64,000 nucleotides of DNA from Tomitella gaofuii. GTDB lineage: Bacteria; Actinomycetota; Actinomycetes; Mycobacteriales; Mycobacteriaceae. Of the stretch, positions 4,384-22,513 are shown piece by piece. Position numbers and translations under genes: made by a program. The notes under the pieces are model-generated. The model saw nothing but the letters and a program-made list of their open reading frames with translations, made no database searches and was not told the origin of the DNA. Location of the stretch: the NCBI RefSeq assembly GCF_014126825.1, contig NZ_CP059900.1, positions 4,044,954 to 4,108,953 on the forward strand, in the 5' to 3' direction. The first letter of the stretch is position 1. The number at the start of each line of letters is the position of its first letter.

Positions 4384-4977
4384 ATGACCACGGCCGCGAC
4401 ATCGACCAGTGAGCGGATCATCCTCACCGCGGAGCGCCTCTTCGGCGAACGCGGACTGGGCTCCGTGTCGCTCCGGGAGATCGCGGTGGCAGCCGGTCAG
4501 CGGAACTCCGCCGCGGTCCACTACCACTTCGGAAACAAGGACGCACTGGTCCAGGCGGTGTTCGACCATCGGATGGCGGGCACCAACGCGCACCGGCTGA
4601 GCATGCTCGCCGCCATGACAGCCGACGGCCGCGACGCAGACCTGCGCGCCCTGCTGGAGGCGCTCGTCACCCCCCTGGCGGCCGCCACCGGCCACGCGGA
4701 CAGCCACTTCGGCGCGTTCCTGCTGCAGCTGGCCAGCGTGCCGCCGTACCGGATCAACTGGGACTGGGAGTCCGCCGAGAGCGTCCGACTGGTGTGGCGG
4801 GGAATCGCACGGTGCCTCGCACTGTCCGGGCCCGTGGCGGACGAGCGCAAGAAGATGCTCACCAACCTCGTGATCCACACCGTCGCCGACCACGAAAGGT
4901 CGGAATCGGACGTGTGGCAACGGCAGCTCATCGACGCCGCGGCCGGGTTGCTCTCCGCCCCTGACAGCACCGGGTGA
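4384..4977 (+). CDS. TetR/AcrR family transcriptional regulator
   Basis: A 197-residue protein with an N-terminal helix-turn-helix: ILTAERLFGERG, then SLREIAVAAGQ, and the recognition helix region ending in AAVHYHFGNKDALV (residues about 10-56), as in TetR proteins. The C-terminal ligand domain is Trp-rich in the middle (INWDWESAE). It is transcribed divergently from the binding protein-alkylsulfatase-ligase operon and probably represses it in response to a fatty or alkyl compound; ligand and targets are inferred. The ATG at 4384 gives the expected short N-terminus before the HTH. Confidence 0.9.
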   Translation: MTTAATSTSERIILTAERLFGERGLGSVSLREIAVAAGQRNSAAVHYHFGNKDALVQAVFDHRMAGTNAHRLSMLAAMTADGRDADLRALLEALVTPLAAATGHADSHFGAFLLQLASVPPYRINWDWESAESVRLVWRGIARCLALSGPVADERKKMLTNLVIHTVADHERSESDVWQRQLIDAAAGLLSAPDSTG

Positions 4978-5314: not shown

Positions 5315-6169
5315 ATGAGCACCACGCCCGACGCCTCCGCCCTCGTCGCCACCGTCGAGAGGTCCCCCGCCGCCGTCGCCGCGCACGACCGCGACGGCTG
5401 GCTCGGCCTTTTCTCGCACGACGCCGAGGTGTGCGACCCGGTCGGCTCGCGCCCCAACCGCGGGCGCGCCGAGCTCACCGCCTTTTACGAGACCTTCATC
5501 GCGCCGAACGACATCACGTTCCGCGTCGAGCACGACACCGTCGCCGGCATGACGGTGTTCCGGGATCTCACGCTCGAGACGGTGATGGGCGGGCGTATGG
5601 GCCCCGGCGGGGCGACCGCGCCGGGCGACGTGGCCCTGCAAGTGCCCATGCATCTGCGTTACGACCTGGTCGACATCGCCGGCGAGGGCCGGAGCGCGGA
5701 CCTGCGCCTGGCGCTGCTGCATGCGCACTGGGAGTTGCCGTCGATGATCGGGCAGCTGCTCGAGCACGGGATCGTCGGCGCCGGGGTCGGCGCCAAGCTG
5801 GTCCCGCGCCTGCTGCGCAATCAGCGCGTCGGGGGCACCGTGGGGTTCGGCCGCGCACTGCGCCGTGCCGGCCGGGAAGGCAAGTCGACGGTGGAGGGCC
5901 TGCTGGGCGCGCTGTCCTCCGGCGACGCCGCCGGCGCGCGGGAACGCCTCATGCCCGGTGTCTCGATCGAACTGCCCGGCACCGACCGGAGCATGACCAT
6001 CGAGGAGTTCGCGGGCGCGCCGCGCGGGCTGCGCTGGCGCAAGCTCCTGTCCGCGGGGATGACCGTCACCGCCACCATCGAGTCGGAAGGGGCACGCGGC
6101 GTGGGCCTGTTCGAGTTCGACGACCGGCGCGACCGGGTCAGCCGCGCGCGGTTGTACCTTCCCGGCTGA
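5315..6169 (+). CDS. NTF2-like (SnoaL/ketosteroid isomerase fold) protein
   Basis: A 284-residue protein. Residues about 5-145 look like an NTF2/SnoaL domain: VAAHDRDGWLGLFSHDAEVCDPVG followed by FYETFIAPNDITF, the pattern of small alpha+beta-barrel isomerases and polyketide cyclases. A second, less clear half (about 175-284) again has the features of such a domain (LLGALSSGDAAGARERLMPGVSIELPG), so it may be a tandem duplication of the fold. The function is not determinable from sequence. I chose ATG 5315 because the first domain begins immediately after it; upstream in-frame codons fall in repeat DNA. Its 3' end overlaps the convergent gene by 32 nt. Confidence 0.72.
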   Translation: MSTTPDASALVATVERSPAAVAAHDRDGWLGLFSHDAEVCDPVGSRPNRGRAELTAFYETFIAPNDITFRVEHDTVAGMTVFRDLTLETVMGGRMGPGGATAPGDVALQVPMHLRYDLVDIAGEGRSADLRLALLHAHWELPSMIGQLLEHGIVGAGVGAKLVPRLLRNQRVGGTVGFGRALRRAGREGKSTVEGLLGALSSGDAAGARERLMPGVSIELPGTDRSMTIEEFAGAPRGLRWRKLLSAGMTVTATIESEGARGVGLFEFDDRRDRVSRARLYLPG

Positions 6170-7067: not shown

Positions 7068-8602
7068 CAGACGCGCTCGCGGAGCTCCCGCTTGAGCAGC
7101 TTGCCGCTGGCGTTGCGGGGCAGCTCGTCGACGAAGACCACGCGCTTGGGCACCTTGAACGACGACAGCCGGCCGCTGACGTGGGAGAGGAGGGACTGCT
7201 CGGTCACCGGTGCACCGTCACGCAGCACCACCACGGCCGTCACCGCCTCGATCCATTTCTCGTCGGGCATGCCGATCACCGCAGCCTCCGCCACCGACTC
7301 GTGCGTGTAGAGGGCGTCCTCCACCTCGCGGGACGCCACGAGCACGCCGCCGGTGTTGATCACGTCCTTGATGCGGTCGACGACGGTGATGTAGCCCTGC
7401 GCGTCCCGCGTGACGAGGTCCCCGGAATGGAACCAGCCGTCGCGGAACGCCTCCGCGGTGGCCGGCTCATCGTCCCAATACCCCTCGCACAGCTGCGGCG
7501 AGCGGTAGAGCACCTCCCCCGGCTCGCCGTCCGCGGCCTCGTCGCCGTCTGCGTTCACCACCCGGGATTCGACGTAGAACACCGGATGCCCGCAGGATTC
7601 GGGCCGCTCGTCGTGGTCCTCGGGCCGCAGCACGGTGGCCAGCGGACCGATCTCCGACTGGCCGAAGCAGTTGTAGAAGCCCAGCTCCGGGTACCGTCCG
7701 CGCAGCCGCTGGAGCACCGTCACCGGCATGATCGAGGCGCCGTACTGCGCCTTGGTCAGCGAGGACAGGTCACGGGCCGCCAGGTCCGGGTGGTTCGCCA
7801 GCGGCACCCACACCGTGGGCGCCAGGAACAGCGAGCCGATCCGTTCGGCCTCGACCGTCCGCAGGATCTCCGCCACGTCGGGCGCCGGCAGCAGCGTGAT
7901 CTCCGCGCCCACCGCCAGGTACGGCAGCATGAACACGTGCATCGCCGCCGAATGGTAGAGCGGCATGCAGATCAGCGGCCGGTCCTCCGCGGTGAGGTCC
8001 AGCGCCATGATGCAGGAGACGTACTCGCACATCAGCGCGCGCTGCGTCATCATCGCACCCTTGGGCCGGGACGTGGTGCCGGAGGTGAACAGCAGCTGCG
8101 CCAGGTCGCCGCCGCCCACGTGCCCCGCCTCGGTGAGCTCCTCGTACGTGGGCACCGCGCCTGCGCGGACCGCGTCGAGCAGGCAGGTTCCGCCGTCGCG
8201 CAACAGCAGGATCGTCTCCACGCCGAGATCGCCGCACACCGGGGCGGCCGCGTCCTCCAACCCAGGGTCCACGAGCAGCGCCCGCGTCGCCGTGGTCCGC
8301 AGGATGTGCGCGAGTTCCTCGCCGCGCAGCGCGTAGTTGACGGGCACGTGCACCAGCCCCGCGCGTGCGCACGCGAGGAACCCGATCAGGTACGCATCGG
8401 AGTTGGTGCCGAACGCCGCCACCCTGTCGCCGATGCGCAGCCCCTTGGACCGGAGCCACCCGACCCCGCGGGACACGGCGTCATCGAGCTCCCGGTAACT
8501 CCACCTGCGCCCTTCGAAGACGAGGGCTGTGCGATCAGGGTGGCGCGTCGCGGAGCGGCGCAGCACGCCGTCGACCGTGTTGGCATGCGGGTCCAGGCTC
8601 AT
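7067..8602 (-). CDS. Acyl-CoA synthetase (FadD-type, ANL superfamily)
   Basis: 511 residues, full length for the family. The P-loop is LLFTSGTTSRPKGAMMT, followed by YNCFGQSEIGP (A5-like), DGWFHSGDLV, DRIKDVINTGG and the catalytic-lysine tail LPRNASGKLLKRELRE. It should adenylate a fatty or aromatic acid and load it on CoA. The Met at 8602 gives the canonical N-terminus MSLDPHANTVDGVLRR; the frame is open further upstream but that part overlaps the thioesterase genes. It lies 80 nt downstream of two thioesterase genes and is coupled to the spermidine-synthase-like gene. The substrate cannot be inferred beyond an acyl chain. Confidence 0.92.
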   Translation of the reverse strand: MSLDPHANTVDGVLRRSATRHPDRTALVFEGRRWSYRELDDAVSRGVGWLRSKGLRIGDRVAAFGTNSDAYLIGFLACARAGLVHVPVNYALRGEELAHILRTTATRALLVDPGLEDAAAPVCGDLGVETILLLRDGGTCLLDAVRAGAVPTYEELTEAGHVGGGDLAQLLFTSGTTSRPKGAMMTQRALMCEYVSCIMALDLTAEDRPLICMPLYHSAAMHVFMLPYLAVGAEITLLPAPDVAEILRTVEAERIGSLFLAPTVWVPLANHPDLAARDLSSLTKAQYGASIMPVTVLQRLRGRYPELGFYNCFGQSEIGPLATVLRPEDHDERPESCGHPVFYVESRVVNADGDEAADGEPGEVLYRSPQLCEGYWDDEPATAEAFRDGWFHSGDLVTRDAQGYITVVDRIKDVINTGGVLVASREVEDALYTHESVAEAAVIGMPDEKWIEAVTAVVVLRDGAPVTEQSLLSHVSGRLSSFKVPKRVVFVDELPRNASGKLLKRELRERV

Positions 8603-18767: not shown

Positions 18768-20795
<2,028 letters not shown>

Positions 20796-20816: not shown

Positions 20817-20860
20817 GACCGCGGCCCGCCGACCACACACGTCGGCGGGCCGCGGTCTTT
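20817..20860. terminator. Strong intrinsic terminator after the BCCT gene
   Basis: GACCGCGGCCCGCCGAC (20817-20833) and GTCGGCGGGCCGCGGTC (20841-20857) form a 17-bp perfect stem with a CACACAC loop, followed by TTT. It separates the BCCT transcript from the micro-protein pair downstream. Confidence 0.9.
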
Positions 20861-20936: not shown

Positions 20937-20965
20937 TTGTGCTCTGACTCACCAGTAACTATGGT
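20937..20965 (+). promoter_or_regulatory. Probable promoter of the micro-protein pair
   Basis: TTGTGC (20937-20942) and TATGGT (20960-20965) are separated by 17 nt, a good sigma-70/SigA-like match, about 60 nt upstream of the first small gene. The region is isolated by the terminator at 20817-20860. Confidence 0.5.
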
Positions 20966-20983
20966 CGTCTGCGACATTGCAAA

Positions 20984-21005
20984 CGTACGTCCAATGCGTA
21001 CGTCC
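20984..21005. repeat. Direct repeat CGTACGTCC in the micro-protein leader
   Basis: CGTACGTCC occurs at 20984-20992 and 20997-21005, a 13-nt period, each containing the self-complementary CGTACG-like core. It lies between the likely transcription start and the ribosome site at 21018-21023, so it may be an operator or an RNA element. Confidence 0.4.
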
Positions 21006-21030
21006 GTCTCATAACTCAAGGAGTTTTACA

Positions 21031-21180
21031 ATGGGTTCACTTCCGGGCCTCATCGACCTGCTGCCGATGATCAACATCCTCAACGGCTTCGACACGATGT
21101 CGCTCAACGGCATCGGGTCGGCACAGACCCAGTCGCTCGACGCCGTCGGCTCGCTCGAGGGCCTCATCGGCGGCAAGTAG
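21031..21180 (+). CDS. 49-residue micro-protein, PorA/PorH-like candidate (first of pair)
   Basis: The gene starts at ATG 21031 with an excellent AAGGAG 8 nt upstream and encodes 49 residues, MGSLPGLIDLLPMINILNGF at the N-terminus and ending SLEGLIGGK. There is no signal peptide and no Cys; the residue mix is Gly, Ser, Leu, Ile and Asn with amphipathic spacing. Codon use is like that of expressed host genes. A second protein of the same style follows 63 nt later, and the pair is bracketed by strong terminators and has its own promoter. In Corynebacterium the tandem genes porH and porA encode 57- and 45-residue signal-less proteins that together form the mycomembrane channel. Size, tandem arrangement, composition and lack of signal agree; sequence identity is not evident. 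Alternatives: a secreted small peptide pair or toxin. Confidence 0.6.
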   Translation: MGSLPGLIDLLPMINILNGFDTMSLNGIGSAQTQSLDAVGSLEGLIGGK

Positions 21181-21243
21181 CCACACCCCCTCACCGGCCG
21201 GGCGCCGGCCGTCAGTCTCAAAGCACAGATCCAGGAGAAACAC

Positions 21244-21408
21244 ATGCTCACGCAGTCCCTCACCGACGTTTTCGGCGTCTTCAACACCAGCATCGAGAAC
21301 GGCACCGGCTCCATCAGCAAGCTCGGCGGCGAAGGCATCGGCAGCCTCGGCGACATCCTCAAGCCCTTCTTCGCCGGCCTCGAGACCATGAGCGGCGCGG
21401 CCAAGTAG
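21244..21408 (+). CDS. 54-residue micro-protein, PorA/PorH-like candidate (second of pair)
   Basis: ATG 21244 follows CCAGGAGAAACAC. The 54 residues begin MLTQSLTDVFGVFNTSIENG and end in ETMSGAAK, with no signal peptide, no Cys, and amphipathic helices rich in Gly, Ser, Leu and Phe. Ser and Thr residues suitable for O-mycoloylation, a known modification of corynebacterial PorA/PorH, are plentiful. The gene shares style, size and C-terminal Lys with the preceding 49-residue gene and lies before a strong hairpin. Assignment as a two-component mycomembrane channel is inference. Confidence 0.6.
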   Translation: MLTQSLTDVFGVFNTSIENGTGSISKLGGEGIGSLGDILKPFFAGLETMSGAAK

Positions 21409-21422
21409 GACCGCCTGCACCC

Positions 21423-21454
21423 GCGGGGCGCCCACCGACCGGTGGGCGCCCCGC
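21423..21454. terminator. Hairpin terminator after the micro-protein pair
   Basis: GCGGGGCGCCCACC (21423-21436) and GGTGGGCGCCCCGC (21441-21454) form a 14-bp perfect stem with a GACC loop, 15 nt after the stop of the second small gene. The U-run is weak. Confidence 0.8.
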
Positions 21455-21484
21455 AGTGTTCGTCCGTGCCACTTCACTTGCACT

Positions 21485-21508
21485 GCCGTACGGTATTTTC
21501 AATACGGC
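21485..21508. promoter_or_regulatory. Inverted repeat in an AT-richer patch upstream of the LLM gene
   Basis: GCCGTA-N12-TACGGC is a perfect 6-bp inverted repeat around CGGTATTTTCAA. It is separate from the GGACA/TGTCC site at 21555 and could be a second operator for the gene at 21659. Confidence 0.3.
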
Positions 21509-21658: not shown

Positions 21659-22513
21659 GTGCGTTTCGGAGTCACCCTGTTCACCAGCGACAGGGGCATC
21701 ACCCCCGCCGCCGCCGCCCGCGCCGCCGAGGACGCGGGTTTCGACGCGTTCTACGTGCCCGAGCACACCCACATCCCCGCCCGCCGCGAGGCCGCGCACC
21801 CCGCCACCGGCGACGCCTCGCTGCCGGACGACCGCTACATGCGCACGCTCGACCCGTGGGTGGCGCTGGGCACCGCGATTCCGGTGACGTCGACGATCCG
21901 CCTGGGCACGTGCGTGGCACTGCCCGTGGAGCATGATCCGCTCACCCTCGCGAAGACCATCGCCACGGTCGACCACCTCGCGGGCGGGCGGGTGACCCTG
22001 GGCGTGGGCTTCGGCTGGAACCTGGACGAGCTGCGCGACCACGGCGTGCCCATCGGGCGCCGGCGGACGATGCTGCGCGAGTATCTCGAGGCCATGAAGA
22101 CACTGTGGGACGACGAGGAGGCCGAGTACCACGGCGAGTTCGTCGAGTTCGACGCCGCGTGGGCCTGGCCCAAGCCCGTGCAATCGCGGGTGCCGGTGAT
22201 CGTGGGTTGCGCGGGCAACGAGAAGAACTTCCGGTGGATCGCCCGCAACGCCGACGGATGGATGACCACCCCGCGCGAGGACGGGGTCGACGCCGGGATC
22301 GCAGGCCTGCGCAGGGCGTGGGCGGAGGCCGGCCGCGACGGCGCGCCGCTGATCCACGCCCTGGTTCCGGGGCGCCCGGACCCCGACGAACTCGCCCGCT
22401 GGCGCGATCTGGGCGTCACCGAGGCGATCTGCGGCATGCCCGACGCGGACGAACCGACCGTCGCCGCCTACCTCCAGCACCTCGCCGGGCGCGTCGCGCA
22501 CCTGCGCGGCTGA
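21659..22513 (+). CDS. LLM-class F420-dependent oxidoreductase
   Basis: 284 residues of a TIM-barrel flavin/F420 enzyme of the luciferase-like family: MRFGVTLFTSDRGI, GFDAFYVPEHTHIPA, GTAIPVTSTIRLGTCV, then LTLAKTIATVDHLAGGRVTLGVGFGWN. This is the TIGR03619-like actinobacterial group in which F420 is the usual cofactor. It would oxidise or reduce an unidentified substrate. The start is GTG 21659 with GAGGAG 6 nt upstream. Its promoter has the same palindrome as the neighbouring P450 and aldehyde dehydrogenase operons, so it probably belongs to the same pathway. It converges on the CMD gene with 37 nt between. Confidence 0.88.
   Translation: MRFGVTLFTSDRGITPAAAARAAEDAGFDAFYVPEHTHIPARREAAHPATGDASLPDDRYMRTLDPWVALGTAIPVTSTIRLGTCVALPVEHDPLTLAKTIATVDHLAGGRVTLGVGFGWNLDELRDHGVPIGRRRTMLREYLEAMKTLWDDEEAEYHGEFVEFDAAWAWPKPVQSRVPVIVGCAGNEKNFRWIARNADGWMTTPREDGVDAGIAGLRRAWAEAGRDGAPLIHALVPGRPDPDELARWRDLGVTEAICGMPDADEPTVAAYLQHLAGRVAHLRG

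Follow-up and report, generated by a model that had tools for sequence, protein, structure and literature searches.

The closest described systems are small mycomembrane proteins of Corynebacterium. The tandem small pair PorA/PorH was reported as a channel former of C. glutamicum (PMC12632848, PMC3792995), and porH-porA of Corynebacterium sit between groEL2 and ppk2 (PMC3792995, PMC5944148). The model given for the pair (PMC12632848) comprises signal-less export, MytC-type mycoloylation, partner dependence and a hetero-oligomeric helical pore in the mycomembrane; the structures 8QHF and 4H18 are MytC, which mycoloylates PorA (PMC11927696). Protein mycoloylation was mapped in C. glutamicum, the sites being serines among Ser, Gly and Ala with no strict consensus (PMC11066868). 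PMC5944148 presents small helical porins as characteristic of Corynebacterium and sets them against the MspA homologues found in Mycobacteria, Nocardia and Tsukamurella; no paired mini-proteins of such kind outside Corynebacterium were described in the titles and abstract openings of the literature searched, mostly non-subscription.

In the window (the whole stretch of DNA analysed, 64,000 nucleotides of Tomitella gaofuii) two small tandem genes, P1 and P2, were compared with these systems. They probably encode the A- and B-type subunits of a small mycomembrane complex working like PorA/PorH, mycoloylated and most likely a pore; the class and the envelope role are well supported by the analysis, channel activity is not proven.

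Gene pair P1/P2 and its flanks

20817-20857, no strand: 17-bp perfect hairpin, terminator-like, 3' of the upstream transporter gene (arms 20817-20833/20841-20857; inverted-repeat scan)
20955-21017, + strand: upstream block kept in Tomitella genome G003, with the direct repeat CGTACGTCC at 20984-20992 and 20997-21005; candidate promoter/operator
21018-21023, + strand: ribosome site of P1, AAGGAG
21031-21180, + strand: P1, A-type gene, 49 aa, starts MGS (ORF reading)
21233-21237, + strand: ribosome site of P2, AGGAG
21244-21408, + strand: P2, B-type gene, 54 aa (ORF reading)
21423-21454, no strand: 15-bp perfect hairpin, terminator-like, 3' of P2, mostly conserved in G003 (arms 21423-21437/21440-21454)
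21659-22513, + strand: luciferase-like monooxygenase gene (PF00296), downstream; locus marker in 5/5 Tomitella genomes, context only

Reading of the ORFs bore out the first-pass annotation in its two tandem genes for 49 and 54 residues, 63 nt apart on the same (+) strand, each with a strong ribosome site, and in the composition that the products share (no Cys, C-terminal Lys); both proteins also lack Trp, and their net charge is −3 (P1) and −2 (P2). A signal peptide was judged absent from both by reading (no charged n-region, no lipobox). The two terminator stems that had been claimed are present as perfect hairpins: the first is of 17 bp as given (folding energy −42 kcal/mol), the second is of 15 bp, not 14 (−39.5 kcal/mol), and a T tract is missing after both (consensus terminator scan). 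The pair had also been credited with its own promoter, and this was not recovered; since a consensus scan gave no sigma70-type promoter upstream of P1/P2, the candidate promoter is indicated by the conserved upstream block only. The flanking genes encode a BCCT transporter (PF02028) upstream and the luciferase-like monooxygenase downstream. The BCCT gene is split over frames 18768-19859 and 19917-20795 by an in-frame TAG at 19857-19859; the same stretch is uninterrupted in G003 (L006, L200). The sequence GCACTGCCGTACGGTATTTTCAAT (window 21480-21503), 5' of the monooxygenase gene, is near-identical in G000, G002 and G003 and may be an operator or promoter there.

An ORF filter (ATG; RBS ≥5; 30-85 aa; few R/H/C/P/W/K; many G/S/L/I/V/F/A/D/N/T), devised after the pair was known, gave two matches on the + strand of the window, P1 and P2, and none on the − strand. 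No Pfam match was obtained for either protein at E 10. AlphaFold2 on single sequences predicted, at low confidence, a helix 4-46 in P1 (pLDDT 65.8) and helices 6-18 and 35-49 in P2 (pLDDT 70.6); P1 did not stand out in amphipathicity (P 0.38), P2 moderately so (P 0.013).

As signal-less, predicted helical proteins from tandem genes, P1 and P2 recall type VII substrates of the ESX/WXG100 or PE-like kind. WXG100/Esx proteins are of ca. 100 aa with a central WxG; P1 and P2 are of ca. 50 aa, have no Trp and, as said, match no Pfam family. Deletion of type VII components in C. glutamicum, moreover, left the surface exposure of PorH unreduced (PMC12632848), and type VII substrates are the least probable of the readings considered. 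Short, Gly-rich, tandem and fast-evolving products would also suit a secreted peptide pair, i.e., a class IIb-type bacteriocin, a modulin-like surfactant or a signal. This is made improbable by the lack of a double-Gly leader in P1 and P2, by nearest genes that include no peptide exporter and no recognisable immunity gene, by a plasmid search that returned no match for the three proteins searched, and by the PF00756 enzyme gene that comes next in relatives of three other genera (see below).

Conservation within Tomitella

Five genomes were compared: G000 (the window genome, 4.35 Mb), G001 (T. biformata AHU 1821), G002, G003 and G004 (81% complete). The pair is present at this locus in G000, G002 and G003 (3/5); G001 and G004 have no pair there. 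The G003 locus holds proteins of 50 and 54 aa, 88/83% identical to P1/P2, with start codon and RBS kept. At the G002 locus P1 (42 aa) and P2 (58 aa) are separated by an extra ORF of 42 aa, identity being 48/41%. NG86 dN/dS values versus G003 were 0.088/0.246 for P1 (ratio 0.36) and 0.109/0.158 for P2 (ratio 0.69), dN being modestly below dS; versus G002, 0.56/0.81 for P1 and 0.50/0.24 for P2 (dN > dS, unreliable at such length). On these substitution figures P1 and P2 are fast-evolving proteins.

Single MGS genes without a B partner were also found in Tomitella (L035, L166, L171); the narrow profile did not tie them to the A-type, 139-212 of 1000 shuffles reaching their scores. The window genome holds two more signal-less Gly/Ser-rich mini-ORFs around a PF00756 mycoloyltransferase-like gene (L141:3272-3442, − strand, and 5461-5589, + strand); the latter is a single MGS gene ca. 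330 nt from the divergent PF00756 open frame.

Relatives in other genera

The narrow A1 profile, run on 298 genomes of the order, gave matches confined to the window genome, and an A1 scan of named genomes gave no relative. The A2 profile on 298 order genomes gave four weak matches outside Tomitella (E 0.002-0.006), which were taken as chance because three of the four loci have no filter match and the fourth (L011) has one 71-aa ORF on the opposite strand. With the merged Tomitella profile weak adjacent matches were obtained in T. biformata (E 0.033 and 3.1); these are four tandem ORFs of 45-46 aa in the order A, B, A, B, ca. 400 nt after groEL. The profile thus enlarged reached, in 251 family genomes, genus g79, Rhodococcus (g94) and genus g83; an A-type profile on 397 order genomes reached genera g3 and g8. 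The latter search spanned 86 genera, of which probably ≤31 belong to family f1, and its sole match outside that family sits within a 432-aa frame. Family f1 is probably a mycolic-acid family because of Tomitella, Rhodococcus and the PorH-like match in genus g7. The Rhodococcus strains with relatives are R. globerulus, R. erythropolis, sp. P-2 and sp. ARC_M6.

A-then-B tandems, both genes preceded by an RBS and 43-119 nt apart, are present in Tomitella, Rhodococcus, g3, g8, g83 and g79 (18 adjacent pairs tabulated); exceptions are a B-type gene of g79 without a detected partner (L147, L149) and sp. ARC_M6, in which B alone passed the filter. Conservation of the pair in relatives, named as a check by the first-pass annotation, was therefore observed both at three of the five Tomitella loci and as same-order tandems in other genera of the family.

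For a test of kinship, profiles built from the Tomitella proteins of this locus alone (three sequences each) were scored against proteins of other loci, 17 of A-type and 18 of B-type (one B pair identical). At least 99% of 1000 shuffles were beaten by 14 of the 18 B proteins and by 7 of the 17 A proteins (6/17 when residues 1-4 were left unshuffled). Seen from the window, the A-type proteins of g3 and g8 are weakly linked: their scores were reached by 7-52 of 1000 shuffles, and by 43-151 when residues 1-4 stayed in place. For these two genera the A-type link is therefore carried by the step-wise profile and the B partner.

Gly-Ser was the most enriched dipeptide past residue 4 (74 observed, 26.9 in shuffles; 37 distinct proteins, whose relatedness inflates the figure). 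All ten sequences of the A8 alignment start with MGS and share a second GS; one GS is common to the 12 B-type sequences of the A7 alignment. Judged on the sequences, the enrichment fits the Ser/Gly-rich mycoloylation sites reported in PMC11066868.

Other searches were as follows: A8, order genomes, 10 matches beyond the window genome, seven of them at A starts that have a B partner, and those in G134, G143 and G391 not at such a start; A4, family genomes, 19 matches outside Tomitella, six of them small-frame relatives and 13 in frames of ≥146 aa, which were rejected (no strict-filter match at their loci; nothing alike at the three inspected more loosely); PDB with A4, nothing at E 1; PHROGs with six proteins, a single insignificant match; NCBIfam and Pfam with seven A/B relatives, no match. 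A stretch 96% identical over 26 bases to P1 DNA (L004) is a chance match inside another gene, which we take to be enolase-like. In Rhodococcus (L138, L183-L185) further mini-ORFs, unlike the A and B types, occur near groEL or the pairs (e.g., 43, 64 and 37 aa); in g79 (G363) the B-type gene has two mini-ORFs of MGSI type on the strand opposite to it, no more than 2.5 kb away (L198:6625-6783 and 7150-7317, −).

The groEL locus

The two A-B pairs of T. biformata lie directly 3' of groEL, i.e., in the position of porH-porA. The window pair is not at groEL and so does not have the porH-porA location between groEL2 and ppk2; G000, G002, G003 and G004 have no pair within 1.5 kb after groEL. In G000, G002 and G003 a signal-peptide-like, acidic, Cys-containing protein with GS-rich stretches is encoded after groEL (L039 ca. 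1039-1414, L037:1926-2315 and L038:1039-1413, respectively), on the opposite strand and in the place taken by the A-B pairs in T. biformata.

A survey of ≤3.5 kb after groEL2 covered 65 regions of 29 genera, chosen among the 114 matched non-Tomitella genomes, g79 and g7 being the most sampled (7 each); a looser form of the filter was used for the first mini-ORF count, and a minimum of 28 aa for the co-occurrence count. The filter gave 25 matches on the gene strand versus one on the other, and none in five Markov shuffles. The 25 matches fall in 17 regions of five genera (g79, 10; g94, 7; g7, 5; g83, 2; g96, 1). In 7/7 genomes of g79 groEL is followed by one to three tandem mini-ORF pairs and then by a mycoloyltransferase-like gene; for most of them sequence gives no tie to the A and B types, one of the four mini-ORFs tested beating all 300 shuffles, with one of four profiles. 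Mini-ORFs and a mycoloyltransferase motif were found together in 10 of the 62 regions of ≥3 kb (7 of the 10 from g79), singly in 6 and 3, and neither in 43, hence in most regions neither feature (P 1.5e-5; three regions of <3 kb dropped); counted by genus (28), the association had P 0.027.

The strand bias bears on the reading of P1 and P2 as small cytoplasmic or regulatory proteins, or as chance ORFs. Their shortness and the weak constraint on P2 by dN/dS would allow it; the strong RBS, the starts and order conserved across genera, and the survey counts just given stand against it, and it is very improbable.

Mycoloyltransferase-type neighbours

B is followed on its own strand by a PF00756 gene in 8/8 pairs (g3, 6/6; g8, 1/1; g83, 1/1), two of the g3 loci (G218 and G402) being near-identical and the PF00756 open segment of g83 overlapping B. 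For the three pair-adjacent enzymes searched, the best PDB match was MytC/Cmt1 (8qhf/4h18), ahead of PS1 and Ag85; E-values for 8qhf: g3 (L174), 5e-68; g8 (L179), 4e-71; g83 (L195), 4e-54. The same order of matches was obtained with a Rhodococcus enzyme a few kb off the pair (L202, 6e-83). A best match to Cmt1 is not specific, because a second esterase adjoining the g8 enzyme also has Cmt1 on top (180 bits).

Rhodococcus and T. biformata have a PF00756 gene at a distance of a few kb from the pair, beyond a prolyl oligopeptidase gene. Between these two genes of T. biformata there are mini-ORFs at L140:4060-4215 and 4826-4960, one with the internal repeat GSIEKLLG. A mycoloyltransferase-like motif was found in 15 of the 20 loci scanned, some of the same or near strains; it was absent from three g79 loci with A/B relatives (8-10 kb examined), from G002 and from G003, and the 64-kb window holds no mycoloyltransferase-like gene. 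Genes of WS/DGAT type (PF03007) are further neighbours, on the flanks of the pair in Tomitella G002, R. globerulus, g8 and g83 and near it in g3 (G297); the WS/DGAT motif is near the pair in 5/6 g3 loci.

Because signal-less mini-proteins occur in pairs beside mycoloyltransferase-type genes in the relatives, they are probably pores or anchors in the outer membrane. The same genomic evidence is compatible with a mycoloylated mycomembrane pair that forms no pore, i.e., an anchor tying the mycomembrane to the cell wall, or a receptor-like surface coat such as ProtX may be; P1, moreover, is not specially amphipathic. ProtX of C. glutamicum is likewise very small, predicted helical, mycoloylated and without a signal sequence (PMC9671496, PMC12632848), and is a phage receptor (PMC9671496); it is treated there as receptor-like rather than as part of an A-B pair, and the likeness drawn here is by description, not by sequence. 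The recurring A-B two-gene order is the pattern of a two-component channel, and it is the tandem pair of C. glutamicum that forms a channel in the reports cited above; an anchor or coat is on this account rather unlikely, if the most serious alternative to a pore.

Comparison with PorA/PorH

P1 and P2 gave no match at E ≤10 to the NCBIfam models of PorA/PorH (NF033925, NF033938, NF033937); as a positive control, a PorA sequence scored 83.5 bits on NF033925. An ORF at the groEL locus of g7 scored 28.9 bits on porH_2, just under the cut-off of 30. A and B profiles versus PorA, PorH and the g7 ORFs gave no convincing similarity (best case, 6 of 300 shuffles reach the score), in line with the earlier remark that none is evident by eye. 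PorA itself, searched against the PDB, returned a single match, taken as chance (E 0.55).

P1/P2 are like PorA/PorH in being two tandem genes for signal-less, Cys-free proteins of <60 aa each, in having relatives after groEL in T. biformata, and in that the g3, g8 and g83 relatives adjoin the type of enzyme that modifies PorA/PorH. They differ in the lack of a family-model match, in the place of the window pair between BCCT and luciferase-like genes, and in the MGS start of the A-type. Of the PorA/PorH-like role first proposed, the paired tandem arrangement and the MytC-type and groEL neighbourhoods of the relatives speak in favour; membership in the PorA/PorH sequence families was not borne out. 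The best reading is that P1/P2 belong to a kind of small mycomembrane protein outside the PorA/PorH families, a kind wider than Corynebacterium.

Proposed mechanism and scope

For the Tomitella pair we infer the following course. P1 and P2 would exit the cytoplasm without a signal peptide by the PorA/PorH route; an enzyme of MytC/Cmt1 type would then put mycolic acid on Gly-Ser serines, candidates being S3 and S30 of P1 and S23 and S34 of P2. Each protein would depend on its partner, as in PorA/PorH, and the two would come together in the mycomembrane, their short helices forming a hetero-oligomer that is most likely a pore.

There is an even chance that the arrangement is general across mycolic-acid bacteria (Tomitella, Rhodococcus and at least four more genera): signal-less A/B pairs, often with a protein-mycoloyltransferase nearby, of which PorA/PorH would be one divergent branch, mycolate attachment marking proteins for sorting to a membrane without Bam machinery. 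If so, small helical porins and protein mycoloylation would be wider than Corynebacterium, and the pairs adjoining a MytC-like gene would give a direct handle on the path of signal-less proteins to the mycomembrane.

MspA-type porins (PF09203) share the role of an outer-membrane channel of mycolata; they form another Pfam family, to which P1 and P2 gave no match at E 10. An MspA match was found in G000 and G004 and none in G001-G003; the pair could therefore be the main channel in some Tomitella and accessory in G000, and would, if the proposal holds, be a candidate channel for the Tomitella genomes without an MspA match.
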